64,000 bases of DNA, from NCBI GenBank assembly GCA_016648135.1, contig JADDOH010005094.1, positions 1-64,000 on the forward strand, written 5' to 3'. Positions within the stretch are counted from its first letter, which is position 1. Each line of letters starts with the position of its first letter. The notes beneath the pieces are model-generated. The model searched no databases. It had not been told where the DNA came from and saw only the letters and a list, made by a program, of their open reading frames with translations. Source of the DNA: Agrypnia vestita (Eukaryota > Arthropoda > Insecta > Trichoptera > Phryganeidae). Positions 7,460 through 35,205 of this stretch are shown here, piece by piece. The position numbers and the translations under genes were made by a program.

Positions 7460-7885
7460 AGATTTGCAATATCAATTTCCTCATAGTAACGTTTAAAATT
7501 ACAGAAAATTCTAGACTTATATATCGAGAGCATACAAATAGAATGCATTTATTAAGTCAAAATTTGATTATTTTCTATTAAATTGGAAAATTTATATATT
7601 TTTCTGCTCTACACCTCAATTGAACGCACTTTGTCGTAGAATGTCTAGTTTTCAAGTTAATAAAATCATTAAGTCGTATTTCTATTTTTTTCTGACAGAA
7701 AGCTTTAAGTCGTATTATAATGCTCCCTGCTAGTATAATAGCTAGTACTAGTAGTTAGAAGGAAAAATCATAGAAATAGGTATGTTTATTACTGACTACA
7801 CCGTTTCGCTATTATTGCTATTTAAAAGAATTACTATTTTGTTTTACGTTTTTGTAGAATGTTTTTATTCAATTTATTTAATGAC
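7460..7885. other. No feature seen
   Basis: AT-rich DNA without supported features. Confidence 0.3.
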
Positions 7886-27544: not shown

Positions 27545-29773
27545 ACATTGTTATAATGGAACGTATGATTAAAAATAGATTAGAATGGCATATGGAGTAT
27601 AATTCTTTATTCTCCCAGTTTCAATTTGAATTTAGTAAATCCCTCTCTTGTATCTCAGTATCAGTATCTCAGCATCTTGTATCTCAATCTCAATATTCTG
27701 ATCATATATTTTCATACGGTTATTTTCACAAATAAACAATTTAGAGTTGTTGAATTCATAGATATAAATGCAGCCTACGACAATGTCCACCTACCGCCTC
27801 TTCTAGAAAAAATGAGAATTAATTCTTAATATTTTTGCTGTTCTCATTGACGGCCCAGATGGTGAAATTGAGAGAACGATTTATAGAGGGCTCCCTCAGG
27901 GTTCAGTTCTGAGTCCTTTGCTATTTACCTTGTACATTGCTTACCTAATAAGAAACGTATCAAATCTGTGTAATATTGTTAATTTTGCCGATGACTTTGC
28001 AGTTTATGTCTCCGACATAAATATACAATCTGAGGTTGATAGATTGATTATAGGGTTTACAGACCTGAGCTAGTGGTTAAAGGATAATGGCTTGGAACTT
28101 TCCCCATCGAAATCGCACATAAAGTTCCCTCCTTGTCAGTCGTAGTCGATGGGGGATCAATATTCCGATAACAAATCGAGTAAAATGAATTTGGATAGAA
28201 AGCTTTCGTGGAAGGCGCATATTGATATGATATTATCGAAATGTGAACATAATATTAATATCCTAAGATTGGTTTGTGATCATGAAATTTTTCTATGAAA
28301 CTCTTATACGAAGTCATTTGGACAATAGCAGCTTCTAAATGAAACCTCTCCCAGCTTATCTTCGAATAAAACTCGACAGGATTTAATACAAAAACCTAAG
28401 AATGATAGTTGGGGCTATAAAGTCGTCTCCGATCAATTAACTACAGGTTGAGTGTGTAGAGATGTCTCTCCATATTAGATGACAGTAGGTGTTTAGCCGA
28501 AAGTATTTTTTAAAAAGATTTTAATTTATGTCCCACCATCTTTTTCAAAAGATTATTGCTTTTACTGATTTGATAAATATACGTAGATATCTGCCAAAAA
28601 AACTGATTTATCTAATCTCTTCCTATATACTCGGTCATACATACTGAGACAATCGAGGAACTTGATAAATCAACCCAGTTAAGTAATAATCTTATAAAAA
28701 TTTATTAATAACGTTGAGAAATGGACAAAGTATCTGCATATTTATACCGATTTTTCCAAAATAGACCATGAATGGTGCAGTGATGCAGCGGTTTTCATAC
28801 CCAAAATAAAAATTTGTATGAAATTCTTTTCTTTTATATAAATATGTATCATTCTTATCATAATTTATATTACAAAATTTTATTCTGCTTCCATTTTTAC
28901 GTTTATACTTCTTTACTATTGTAATTTGTTACATAACTATAAAATGAGAATAACTGTCACAGAACAGGTTTTACCTAGTGTTGAGTCATTAGTAACTTAT
29001 ATTAACAAATTTAAAATAAACAATGAAAATAAACAAACAAACAAACAAATTTCGGCTTCCTCCAAACTCATCGATTACTGTGGAATGTTTGGCGATAAAA
29101 GAAGTCCTTGATGTCTGTTAACTTCAGAATTATGATACTCGGTTCTAAAGCAGCTATCGATTCGATCTGTGCGGGTACGAAGGTTTGGATAAATAACGAT
29201 ATTATCAATTCAATCAGAGTTCTTTTATTTAATTTGTTTAAAAATAACAAACACGTGTCTTTCCTATGGATTCCTGCACATCAGGAAATGCAAGGTATCG
29301 AATACGAGTGTGTGGATAAATTAGCCAAAGATGCAACTACAATTTCGGGTATTTCCCCAGTGCTTCTTCTACCCAATGAATGCTAGGCTGAAAAGTATTA
29401 AAAAGCGTTCTAAATACATGTGGATATTATTGTGGAATGACACAAATGATCACAAGGGAAAGCGTTTAAAAAATATACAGACAAATATTCCTAGCAAACC
29501 TTCATTTAGTAATAAAAATCTTTCCAATCTCCGTAATCTCTAAAATGAGAATTGGCCATTGTCTATTAGCTGCTCATTTGTTCAGACAGAATATAGTGGA
29601 CAGTCCGATTTGCGAGTGTGGTTCAGAGGAGAAGACTCTTAATCACATATTTTTTGCCTGCCCATTGCGGAACTCAATGCAAGCGGATCAACACCAAATT
29701 TCAACTCCCAACCAATATTTGCCATCTTCTTGCTTCAAACTTATCTATAATATCAAAATTTCTCCAAATATTT
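27545..29773 (+). pseudogene. RNase H-bearing LINE (I/Jockey-type), degenerate, part 1
   Basis: Reverse transcriptase: MERMIKNRLEWHMEYNSLFS (27556), FIDINAAYDNVHLPPLLEKM, GLPQGSVLSPLLFTLYIAYL (27888), NFADDFAVYVSD (catalytic ADD box, about 27980) and WLKDNGLELSPSKS. RNase H: IMILGSKAAIDSICAG and VSFLWIPAHQEMQG followed by DKLAKDAT (29130-29340). A zinc-binding-like tail: MRIGHCLLAAHLF and ICECGSEEKTLNHIFFACPL (29545-29680). Stops and frameshifts throughout. The ORF is cut at ...KISPNI by the LTR element and resumes at 35136. Confidence 0.8.
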
Positions 29774-30502
29774 TGATACGCACTCGTGGTCATTTCCCAC
29801 TTTTCAGAGGGCAGATCCCCGGCTACGATCGCCGCTCTGACGTGCTATCAAACAATTTGGGGAGCGATGATCACTAAGGGAGTGGTGGTGGGAAAATTTA
29901 AATGAAAACATTCGAGTTTGAATCGTACATATATTTACATAATTGAAATTGGAAATTCATCGTTAAATCTAACCTTATTATCTAACGTTAATTCTACCTT
30001 TCTATCGTCTTGAACGTGGCGACGTCCTGGTCCGGCGACGCGACGCTGTACGCATCACGGAGCGACGATTCCCTCGACGCATGGCGTGAGGCCCATCTCA
30101 CGCTGGTCTCCTTCTGCGCTGGCGGCGGGCTGGTTATCGCCCTGATAACCAGCTGACCATCTCCAATGGTCTTCGGCTCCGCCCTTATCCTCTTCTTCCT
30201 CGTCCGTAACAGCGGCCACGTCAGGCTACATCAATCCACCTGACGCCGCTGTTGGTGGGCTTCAGGCGTCCTCCTCAGCCTGCTTGACTGTCGCCTTGAC
30301 AATCAAGATCACGTCAGACCACCCGGCTCTCCAGGGAGTCTTCTTCCTCCGCTGGGGCTCCTCGGCGTAGTCCTCCCGACTGTCGCTCTGACCAGTCGGG
30401 TTCCCGTCTCTCTTCTTCTCGTTTCTCTTTCTCTCGGCGCTCCTTCCGCGGTTCACTTAATTGATGGTCGGCCGACAGTCATCTCTCACTGCCGGCCGAC
30501 AT
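29774..30502 (-). repeat. LTR copy A, R-U5 part
   Basis: Matches the palindrome arms. Differences from arm B (about fifteen) all lie in the part corresponding to about 34118-34295. It ends at the hairpin GTCGGCCGACAG / CTGCCGGCCGAC (30469-30502), past which arm B no longer matches. The U3 part continues to the right (about 30503-30720 or further); its TG start is not resolved. A TTAAAA sequence lies about 20 bp upstream of the hairpin on the sense strand. Confidence 0.7.
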
Positions 30503-33436
30503 TCTCGCACGACTTTTAACACTCACTACTCACTTCTAGACTTCCAAGTCCCAACTGCTCTTCCAACGATCTACTCCCAACTCTTTCCAAGTCCCAACTC
30601 CCTGTGGGAGTGGCCACGCAGGGTTTTTATACATTTCAGTTTCCCTTCAACGTTTTTGGCCACTACCCTCCTGTCCAACACTTAATCTTATTCGTTAGGC
30701 CTAATATTCGGCCACGCCTCCTAATATTATTTTACTTAACTAATCTTTACTAACAAGAAATAAAAATCTTAAAATTAATACCACTTATAAATAAAAAATT
30801 TTTTCATAAAATTAATTACATTAATAATTAGTCTAATATTAACAAACAATAGATGGAATGAGCGTCAAGGCACAGATGGCTTTTGGACCACCCCGGTTAG
30901 GGGCTATATAATTTATTACCGTTCAAGAATATACGGAAGCAAGGCGAGATTTTTCTACAATAATTGAACGGACTGGCGAACAATGTTAAATGTTGGTTTT
31001 AGAAACTAATAGCTTCCTTAGCACGGATTCGGAGAAAATTTGGTAAAAATCATGTACCCCGTCTCCTTAGAAATTTATGGCTTTCTAACATGTGCAGCTA
31101 CGACCATGAGGGTGTTCTTACGACAAAATTTAAAAATTCGCAGAATTACCCTTGGCTCTGAAATCTTACGGAAAAAAAAACGCGACCACCCCGAAGAGAG
31201 AGAACGAATTTGACGCGTTTTTCACAATAAAATTGATAGGAATACATCACTCGCCCCCTCTTCAAGTTGTGTAAAACGCGACATATTCTAATTAACCCGC
31301 GTCCTCTTATTTATATTTACCCCTCGACGAAATTATGTTAGGTACTTAGGGAAGGTAATAAAAATTAAAATAATCTCAACTTAGGTAATTAACTAAATTA
31401 CTCTGGATCCTAAAAATCTAAATTCGAAAAATAAAAGTAACCTCGCGTACGTGAAAACTATGAAAATATCCACATTGGGGTCTGATCCATCTTGTCATCC
31501 CGTTTTGCGATCGGCTCTCCACGTACCCCCTTCTACTGATTTTACCCACATTTCGGAACCGATGTGTACCTGACTATACCGTTCTTCCGTATATCGCTAC
31601 ATCCGCTATTCCCCTTCGTTTTCCATATACCCTTCCTTCTCGTGGGTTCCAAGTCAGCTCCATTGCCAACACACTAGAACCGTCTTTCGCCGACCCCTGC
31701 ATGGGTGGCTTCCGTGGGTGACTGTCGCCCTGACCAGTCGAGATCCCTCTTCAATTCATCTTCAATTCATCATAAGCTATTATGCAACACCGTCATTTCC
31801 GTGTCAACGCATTTATGACATCGGAACAAACAAATTTCCCCGTCTACTGTATGGTTCAGTACGCAAAAATTCCGAAAAAGAGAAAAAAACATTACCCCCA
31901 TTTTGATAAATTCAAACGAGAAAAAAAATCTACGTAACTTGACAGAAAAATTTATTCGCGAATAACAAAACACTCAACAACTACGTACTATATGCCAGAT
32001 GAGCGGGTCTTATACACGTTCATTCAAAACTATAAAAAAAATAACCTTACATTACAGAACACAAAAAAAACACGTTACTTCACGAAAATCATAACATCAC
32101 ACAACCCAAGAACGAAACGATAACAATTATATCCCTCGACCGTTCCGACTTTAAAATCTACAAAAAAAAATTGGTTAAAGCGAAAGTGCCTTAAAACGCA
32201 TACCATCTATGTAAATACACAATAACGGGAGAGAAAAAACAAAAGTACCATGAACCTTTCCTTCCTACTTCCTGAACGACTACCGTTATTACTGATGTAG
32301 ACAAAAAAAACAGTAAAAATTACACGTAATTTTCAATGAATAACCAACATTAGAACATACCCTAAACTCATTTTTGTTACCGACCATAAACTTGACCTAA
32401 ATATTTTATTTTAAGTTGTACTTTACCGACCTACCCTAATTACTAACAATGGGCACAGTATACTGTGCAATGGGGTACTTATTGCACAATATTGGTCCCT
32501 TAGTTTACTGACCCACTGAGAGATCCGTATTGTTATATTTATCGTTTTTACTCCTGTCATAAGTGCAATCATAAATGACCTTTCTCGGTTCCTTTGTACG
32601 GTACAAAATAATAAAAAAGGTTTGGCCTTATTCATATCTATTAGCCGCCGTAATTTCGTTCTTCTCTCGAAATAATCTATAATTAAGAGAGACATATTTT
32701 ATCCTTACGCGTTAACAGATTTTTAATATTACAGCGTCAACATTTTAAATAACATTGTTTATCTTATATGATTAATAAAAGTCTTCTACATCATCACGGT
32801 AGCTACCAATAACAATTAATCTAATTTATCCCTCGATAACTACTACGTCTATGTCACTTAATCCATTGAATACTATATCATAATTTATATCAACTAAAAA
32901 AAATAGATGTCTTCAAAAACTACTGTTATAAACGATTACTTGTAAGTGCCAAATACCCCCTATCGACACTCAATATCTACAGAGGTATTAACGCTACTAG
33001 GTTCCGCGATGTCTTAATGTTACAAACTTATTACAGAGAGAAATGCGCTATCAAATTTCACAAATCTAATTACTAAAAAAAAAAACCACGCGGCTGATCT
33101 CGCAACTTCCAAAAACCAAATAGGTATAGGTATTTTTCCCGATTCCACTGAGAAATAATACCCTTAAATAATAAAAATGTATATGCCCTACATCTGAGAA
33201 ATAATAACCTTAAATAATAAAAATGTATACGCCCTACATCATATACAAACTGTCCTTCCAATATAAATGGCAATTAAAATTAAAGTATATTATTAACAGC
33301 ATTCCCGATTTTTGAAGGACTTCACTTGCAAAACTACCTACACCTATGATATAAACTACAACACAAATTAATTTAACGAAATCTTGGTAAACATTTTATC
33401 AGTAAAATTGATTATCTACAAATTTTAATTACATAA
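30503..33436 (-). mobile_element. Internal region of the LTR element plus U3, non-coding
   Basis: No open frame above about 90 codons and no retrotransposon protein motifs on either strand. A short piece at 31720-31750 (GACTGTCGCCCTGACCAGTC) resembles part of the LTR (GACTGTCGCTCTGACCAGTC, 34320). A 40-bp unit near 33138-33180 is repeated at 33196-33238. The polypurine tract was not identified. Confidence 0.5.
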
Positions 33437-33715
33437 TTGGGCGCCAAACGATTTTGATTAACCATCAGACAAAATCGTTAAAACCTGGTTTAAAAATCCA
33501 AACTGAAAAAATTCCAACCACCTCCTTGATTTAGTGATCATTGCTAATCTCAGGGTCTTGCGTTCGTCAGACACCATTATCTGAAAAGCACCACGTTCGG
33601 GAGCCAATATGATACGACTCGGCTTATTTTTAATAAGTAAATTAATTGGATCTCAGGGTCGTTTGATCGTCGAGTCTAAACTGATTCGATATGCCCCACG
33701 CTTGGGCCGCCAATA
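33437..33715 (-). promoter_or_regulatory. Three primer-binding-site-like motifs
   Basis: On the sense (minus) strand, directly after the LTR end GTATCA, comes TTGGCGGCCCAAGCGTGG (33693-33713). A second GTATCA-ATATTGGCTCCCGAACGTGG lies at 33588-33614, and a third, CGTTTGGCGCCCAA, at 33437-33450. TGGCGCCC-AACG is a common tRNA primer-binding motif of Gypsy/retroviral-type elements. The region looks like tandem duplications of LTR end plus PBS (unit about 107 bp). Confidence 0.5.
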
Positions 33716-35135
33716 TGATACGCACTCGTGGTCATTTCCCACTTTTCAGAGGGCAGATCCCCGGCTACGATCGCCGCTCTGACGTGCTATCAAACAATTT
33801 GGGGAGCGATGATCACTAAGGGAGTGGTGGTGGGAAAATTTAAATGAAAACATTCGAGTTTGAATCGTACATATATTTACATAATTGAAATTGGAAATTC
33901 ATCGTTAAATCTAACCTTATTATCTAACGTTAATTCTACCTTTCTATCGTCTTGAACGTGGCGACGTCCTGGTCCGGCGACGCGACGCTGTACGCATCAC
34001 GGAGCGACGATTCCCTCGACGCATGGCGTGAGGCCCATCTCACGCTGGTCTCCTTCTGCGCTGGCGGCGGGCTGGTTATCGCCCTGATAACCAGCTGACC
34101 ATCTCCAATGGTCTTCGGCCCCGCCCTCGTCCTCTTCTTCCTCGTCCGTAACAGCGGCCACGTCAGGCTACATCAATCCACCTGACGCCGCTGTTGGTGG
34201 ACTCCAGACGTTCTCCTCAGCCTCCTTGACTGTCACCTTGACAGTCAAGATTACCTTAGACCACCCGGCTCTCCAGAGAGTCTTCTTCCTCTGCTGGGGC
34301 TCCTCGGCGTAGTCCTCCCGACTGTCGCTCTGACCAGTCGGGTTCCCGTCTCTCTTCTTCTCGTTTCTCTTTCTCTCGGCGCTCCTTCCGCGGTTCACTT
34401 AATTGATGGTCGGCCGGCAGTGAGAGATGACTGTCGGCCGACCATCAATTAAGTGAACCGCGGAAGGAGCGCCGAGAGAAAGAGAAACGAGAAGAAGAGA
34501 GACGGGAACCCGACTGGTCAGAGCGACAGTCGGGAGGACTACGCCGAGGAGCCCCAGCAGAGGAAGAAGACTCTCTGGAGAGCCGGGTGGTCTAAGGTAA
34601 TCTTGACTGTCAAGGTGACAGTCAAGGAGGCTGAGGAGAACGTCTGGAGTCCACCAACAGCGGCGTCAGGTGGATTGATGTAGCCTGACGTGGCCGCTGT
34701 TACGGACGAGGAAGAAGAGGACGAGGGCGGGGCCGAAGACCATTGGAGATGGTCAGCTGGTTATCAGGGCGATAACCAGCCCGCCGCCAGCGCAGAAGGA
34801 GACCAGCGTGAGATGGGCCTCACGCCATGCGTCGAGGGAATCGTCGCTCCGTGATGCGTACAGCGTCGCGTCGCCGGACCAGGACGTCGCCACGTTCAAG
34901 ACGATAGAAAGGTAGAATTAACGTTAGATAATAAGGTTAGATTTAACGATGAATTTCCAATTTCAATTATGTAAATATATGTACGATTCAAACTCGAATG
35001 TTTTCATTTAAATTTTCCCACCACCACTCCCTTAGTGATCATCGCTCCCCAAATTGTTTGATAGCACGTCAGAGCGGCGATCGTAGCCGGGGATCTGCCC
35101 TCTGAAAAGTGGGAAATGACCACGAGTGCGTATCA
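33716..35135. repeat. Exact 1,420-bp palindrome (701-bp arms)
   Basis: Arm 33716-34416 and arm 34435-35135 are inverted copies with equal length; everywhere I compared them they are identical. The 18-bp centre (34417-34434) contains GCAG...CTGT and, with the neighbouring GTCGGCCG/CGGCCGAC, forms the same hairpin seen once in LTR A. Both arms carry the variants that distinguish them from copy A. The palindrome ends exactly at the LTR terminus TATCA. Confidence 0.92.
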
Positions 35136-35205
35136 ATTTCATTATTCGAACTACGCAGTCAACAAAATTTAATACTGATCTTCGAAACGCTATTTCGAGT
35201 ATGAA
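35136..35205 (+). pseudogene. LINE, part 2 (C-terminus after the LTR insertion)
   Basis: Joining ...KISPNI (ending 29773) to the base after the duplicated ATTT (35140) continues in the same frame as SLFELRSQQNLILIFETLFR, then V and a stop (TGA near 35204). A short hydrophobic tail after the zinc-binding-like motif is usual for these LINE ORF2 proteins. The 3' UTR follows. Confidence 0.7.

Follow-up and report, generated by a model that had tools for sequence, protein, structure and literature searches.

At one end of an LTR-element insertion in Agrypnia vestita lies a perfect palindrome, which is probably the 5' end of a single insertion whose minus-strand strong-stop DNA copied itself at a hairpin in R, took the place of plus-strand strong-stop DNA, and was integrated through two U5 ends. 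The palindrome is a real and unusual feature of the assembled sequence, known from one locus within the 64,000-nucleotide stretch of DNA that was analysed (the window).

The insertion is 5,362 bp long (29774-35135). Read in its own sense, on the - strand, it ends in a 3' LTR of 1476 bp (LTR A, 29774-31249) that runs from TGATGTATT to TATCA. Adjoining the U3 start of LTR A is AAGAGGGGGCGAG (31250-31262, - strand), which I take to be the polypurine tract, and at the other end of the internal region (31250-33715, - strand) lies TGGCGGCCCAAGCGTGGGGC (33693-33712, - strand), presumably the PBS, 3 nt from the U5 end of the first palindrome arm. That arm, B (33716-34416, - strand), delimited by inverted-repeat comparison, is R-U5 in the sense orientation up to the R hairpin. 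Arm C (34435-35135, + strand) is R-U5 in inverted orientation; its U5 terminus forms the outer end of the insertion, and I interpret the arm as the former minus-strand strong-stop DNA.

Compared directly, arms B and C are reverse complements with 0/701 mismatches and an 18-nt spacer between them. If the count is carried into the hairpin, the arms become 706 nt long (33716-34421 and 34430-35135), with one mismatch in the stem (34417/34434) and an 8-nt loop. The inverted symmetry stops at 35135, the LTR terminus TATCA, and none is found further outward, which bears out the original prediction of equal, identical arms ending at this terminus. A second U5-type terminus lies at 29774 and faces the opposite way. 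Beside the two ends stand exact 4-bp copies of ATTT (29770-29773 and 35136-35139), so the U5-type ends and flanking ATTT first pointed out from the sequence are both there. At the palindrome end U3 is missing, again as first read, and TATAAAA is absent.

Relatives were searched for in the same 1.32-Gb genome, in which the window belongs to contig C4715. The arm matches at least 43 places, three of them inside the window (best 40 of 349 candidates scored). The relatives are ordinary LTR copies that carry U3, their LTRs running from TGATGTATT to TATCA as read on the window's - strand, and a PBS-like site and polypurine tract are present where a body adjoins the LTR. The 18 LTR relatives delimited at both ends measure 1843-1957 bp. 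Exact 4-bp duplications flank 14 of these 18 (all except L007, L009, L012 and L027), the length of the ATTT repeat thus being typical of the family, although L007 and L015 have a common left flank and may not be independent in this count. The 18 are those of the 27 non-window loci with both LTR ends and flanks readable; L008, L011, L013, L020-L024 and L026 were left out because the U3 end was not found, or because one side of the LTR borders on the element's own body or on the edge of the contig. Further copies were seen with a target duplication (L040) and without one (L041). The only complete two-LTR relative examined, L042 (C19335:36295-42213), has LTRs of 1895 and 1926 bp and CCCT on both sides.

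Another relative, L039 (C19860), has an LTR of 1649 bp, is 86.7% alike over R-U5, and contains pol domains in the order RVT_1, RT_RNaseH, Integrase_H2C2, rve, split over two reading frames in this copy. Judged by this pol order, the TG...CA direct LTRs and the fixed 4-bp duplication, the family is Ty3/Gypsy-like. The window copy itself is classed as non-autonomous, since the longest stop-to-stop frame in its body is 110 aa, and it resembles non-autonomous Ty3/Gypsy elements in its TG...CA LTRs, PBS-like site, polypurine tract, 4-bp duplication and a relative with reverse transcriptase, RNase H and integrase. It differs from them at its 5' end, where an inverted R-U5 stands instead of U3 and the 5' portion of R. 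The right half of its internal region, which has no long frames, is common, mostly in part, to other copies: a search with 32501-33715 gave 24 matches with all 21 candidates scored, and full length was reached only in the window and in C1053 (99%). With two G's beyond those of TGGCGCCCAACGTGGGGC, which L039 has at this position, the window's PBS-like site is no simple copy of a tRNA. Over the window, there was no Rfam match at gathering scores and likewise no tRNA gene.

The palindrome is not the family's normal form. A 40-nt pattern from its centre, allowing up to 3 mismatches, has 30 matches. In 29 of them, LTR A included, the symmetry is broken within the pattern, which leaves the window palindrome as the single symmetrical match. 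In the arm search, an adjacent opposite-strand pair occurs only in the window among the matches listed (best 40 of 349 candidates), and with two other LTR subtypes no adjacent opposite-strand LTR pair occurs among the matches listed (best 40 of 274 and best 40 of 363). The original prediction had proposed looking for intact relatives and for other copies with inverted R-U5 ends. The intact relatives were found, whereas the window palindrome is the only inverted one among the 30 centre matches, with none other among the matches listed.

Elements with inverted ends of another kind were also considered. DIRS and foldback elements have inverted terminal repeats at their ends, whereas here the inverted end is found in one copy only. 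DIRS elements encode a tyrosine recombinase and make no target duplication. A DIRS identity was rejected because the L039 relative encodes an rve integrase and the family makes 4-bp duplications, and a foldback or TIR DNA transposon was rejected because an opposite-strand arm is absent from all 27 non-window loci that match the arm (about 3.7 kb each, L008 shorter).

What gives the palindrome a direction is the hairpin at its centre. The hairpin occurs once in LTR A (30467-30500, - strand, in normal polarity, with a 13-bp stem in the RNA fold) and once at the palindrome centre (34408-34443, - strand), as originally stated. On the + strand LTR A reads GTCGGCCG-ACAGTCATCTCTCACTGC-CGGCCGAC, in minus-DNA polarity, whereas the palindrome centre reads GGTCGGCCG-GCAGTGAGAGATGACTGT-CGGCCGACC, its spacer being reverse-complemented relative to LTR A, a detail that the original prediction overlooked. 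Along the - strand, the order is thus arm C, antisense from its U5 end, the hairpin in minus-DNA polarity leading from arm C into arm B, arm B in sense, the PBS-like site, the body, and U3-R-U5. Barring a separate flip of the loop, this spacer polarity implies that the strand which folded had its start at 35135, the outer U5 end, and ran on through the turn into B. Elsewhere, one place with a flipped loop was found against 125 hits of normal polarity (126 less the palindrome itself), and the flipped loop is absent from all 16 B-type loci examined. For a 52-nt B-type minus-sense stretch taken from L001, folding as single-stranded DNA gives -15.2 kcal/mol (z -5.1); a 161-nt stretch of RNA folds unexceptionally overall (z -1.7, 12/200 shuffles as good).

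The one flipped place is in L022 (C11339:18616-18640), where the loop of the R hairpin is inverted and the sequence is 9 nt shorter than in L027. It may be the trace of a separate strand switch at this hairpin. Its existence means that the test by spacer polarity is not absolute.

Minus-strand strong-stop DNA would be just such a strand, of minus sense, starting at a U5 end and turning back in R. Every enzymatic step that follows is one I infer. First, on a B-type RNA, a tRNA-primed minus strand would copy U5 and a portion of R, and the 5' end of this strand would set the outer terminus at 35135, as the position and polarity of arm C suggest. The 3' end of the strand, ...CGGCCGACC, would then pair with GGTCGGCCG across the loop and prime synthesis in the reverse direction across R and U5, so that B would be copied exactly from C; the identity of B and C and the polarity of the loop are what is seen. 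The new 3' end, extended into the PBS part of the tRNA if the tRNA was still attached, would anneal to the PBS complement of a minus strand carrying the body and LTR A, which was probably begun on another RNA in the same particle. The self-primed product has the same 3' end as plus-strand strong-stop DNA and could therefore replace it at the second strand transfer. Extension both ways would yield C-B-PBS-body-U3-R-U5, and integrase would then act on the two U5 ends, with the 4-bp ATTT repeat present in the sequence as the result.

For this self-primed strong-stop origin speak the 701/701 palindrome centred on the R hairpin, an outer end that coincides to the base with the U5 terminus, ATTT beside it and beside the opposite end, and a PBS-like sequence after arm B at the family's usual position. 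The spacer polarity, the rarity of flipped loops and of palindromic centres, the missing U3, the fold of the L001 stretch and the precedent for self-priming discussed below point the same way. The palindrome and its hairpin centre also support the core of the original prediction, that minus-sense DNA snapped back at a hairpin in the R region. Against it stand the TATA spacing, the unexceptional overall fold of the RNA stretch, the two extra G's of the PBS-like site, the different flanking repeats, a loop that can flip, the U3-U5 pairing described for retroviral integration, and the single locus.

The spacing concerns the TATAAAA box of LTR A (30625-30631, - strand), which precedes the hairpin by 131 nt in the sense direction and has no counterpart in the palindrome arms. 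Transcription is expected to start about 30 nt from a TATA box. The position of the box is the reason for placing the hairpin in R, and it suggests a predicted start of R about 100 nt upstream of the hairpin. If so, synthesis stopped early, the end was trimmed, or the start site differs.

The flanks pose a further difficulty. On the left, 29232-29760 is related to a dispersed repeat, presumably LINE-like, up to about 29760 and without the end of that repeat (three relatives); one of its frames, scanned against Pfam, had no match. On the right, from 35139 to about 36567, lies a different repeat without its left part (13 relatives), the alignments starting at 35139 in 12 relatives and at 35141 in one, and six of the relatives were shown to continue leftward past 35139. 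The two repeats therefore meet near the insertion site, and the parts that they lack did not turn up next to the insertion. At 7641-7741 there is a piece about 80% like the left part of the right-hand repeat. A copy spanning the empty site was found neither by a search with the joined flanks (best 40 of 1477 candidates) nor with a 27-nt junction pattern; C7011, a match with 3 mismatches, was rejected because it aligned over only 28 bp (89%). A fusion of the repeats before the insertion, a loss of DNA, and a fusion of two insertions would each account for the junction of repeats, which is a main risk to the self-primed strong-stop explanation.

It is also what gives some substance to the strongest rival, namely two insertions in opposite orientation, one in the left and one in the right repeat, that were fused by a deletion or a replication switch at their LTR hairpins. 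The identity of B and C could then be chance, since 3 of 16 B-type copies equal B over 701 nt. However, both breakpoints would have to fall at one position of the same hairpin, and the ATTT on both outer sides would be coincidental (two random 4-mers of the window agree in 0.6% of draws). Because the ATTT repeat has the length usual for the family, it favours one insertion, and I consider a fusion of two unlikely.

In the order of events originally proposed, minus-strand DNA of the full element ran beyond the PBS into U5 and R, turned back at the hairpin, and made a second copy of R-U5, after which the two U5 ends were integrated. This accounts for the same palindrome, ends and duplication as does a strong-stop strand that starts from the outer end. 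However, a strand running from body through PBS and arm B into the fold predicts the spacer ACAGTCATCTCTCACTGC on the + strand, and its reverse complement, GCAGTGAGAGATGACTGT, is observed; the proposal would need a separate flip of the loop, a state with the single other occurrence given above. It also offers no reason for the returning strand to end precisely at the edge of U5 when it could have continued through PBS and body. As an order of events it is therefore quite improbable, although the fold that it placed at the hairpin is retained in the self-primed strong-stop explanation.

Could the palindrome have arisen in the library or the assembly? Hairpins and palindromes are prone to chimeras, and the structure rests on assembled sequence. 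Yet a fold-back read would mirror the PBS and body after arm C, and what follows arm C is ATTT and other DNA, which makes an artefact very improbable. Weakest of all is an ordinary insertion whose 5' LTR was later rearranged by inverted template switching during host replication or repair, for although the hairpin is a plausible switch point and L022 has a small flip there, the exact U5 terminus followed by the copy of the duplication is left unexplained, and I give this hardly any weight.

The original prediction also appealed to LTR A, which it saw as separated from B and C by about fifteen variants. The count is confirmed: LTR A differs from arm B at 15/701 positions, all within 30178-30350 (- strand), a tract of 15 substitutions in which A is of the C19860 (L039) type, with B-type sequence on both sides. 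The further claim, that a snap-back explains why A differs, does not hold as a specific argument. The two LTRs of L042 are only 91.3% identical, so a difference between A and B is not diagnostic, and the use of this difference as a sign of two RNAs, and hence of a snap-back, was rejected on account of the 8.7% by which the L042 LTRs differ. The C19860-type tract fits template switching, and later gene conversion would fit as well. The U3 of LTR A is short by about 370 bp or more relative to the 18 measured LTRs, and both this missing U3 and the tract could be reverse-transcription switches. At the edge of the deletion, two matches overlap briefly in what may be a direct repeat; in a check for an exact repeat at that edge, each of the LTRs tested had just a single copy.

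Self-priming is known from HIV-1. Part of one account links self-priming of minus-strand strong-stop DNA to the R stem-loop (TAR), describes its suppression by nucleocapsid protein, and treats its products as aberrant (PMC4668388), and a passage in another calls it "a suicidal reaction" (PMC3141651). The process proposed here is like TAR self-priming in that a stable R stem-loop lets minus-strand strong-stop DNA serve as its own primer. It is unlike it in that the proposed product sits in a completed, integrated element, and in the apparent position of the hairpin, about 100 nt into R here but at the start of R in HIV-1 TAR. In an account of the strand transfers, a section argues that the second can be intermolecular (PMC5651808). 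Joining an end from one RNA to a body from another in the same particle would resemble the transfer argued for there, except that the normal donor is PPT-primed plus-strand strong-stop DNA and the donor here would be self-primed minus-strand strong-stop DNA. Retroviral integration is described, in the portion of PMC12789967 consulted, as pairing one U3 with one U5 att site, so that a pair of U5 ends would be unusual; the term "U5-U5" in that portion refers to RNA packaging interactions and was rejected as a precedent. No report of an integrated self-primed strong-stop palindrome was found in the part of the literature covered, mostly titles and the starts of abstracts. An inverted segment in cloned circular Moloney virus DNA was reportedly described in 1980.

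I lean towards the view that self-primed strong-stop DNA is not always a dead end, that it can take over from PPT-primed plus-strand strong-stop DNA, complete reverse transcription and give a U5-to-U5 element, its inverted ends long, that integrase accepts. If the explanation is true, this copy with its intact 4-bp duplication indicates that a self-primed product can be rescued by being joined to a body strand, that it can then be integrated, and that a pair of U5 ends is enough for this step. The signature in a genome would be a palindromic R-U5 that ends in a U5 terminus and a target duplication, with spacer polarity as a test. Such palindromes would then be countable fossils, and errors of reverse transcription could be read from genomes.

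Finally, two features of the body stand apart from the palindrome. At 33591-33623, about 106-107 bp inside the 5' LTR, is a second U5 end and PBS-like copy, degenerate in the window and also present in L013, L020, L042, L043 and L044, which is possibly an older scar of reverse transcription. At 33148-33239 the body contains a tandem 46-bp repeat in two copies that are 96% alike.
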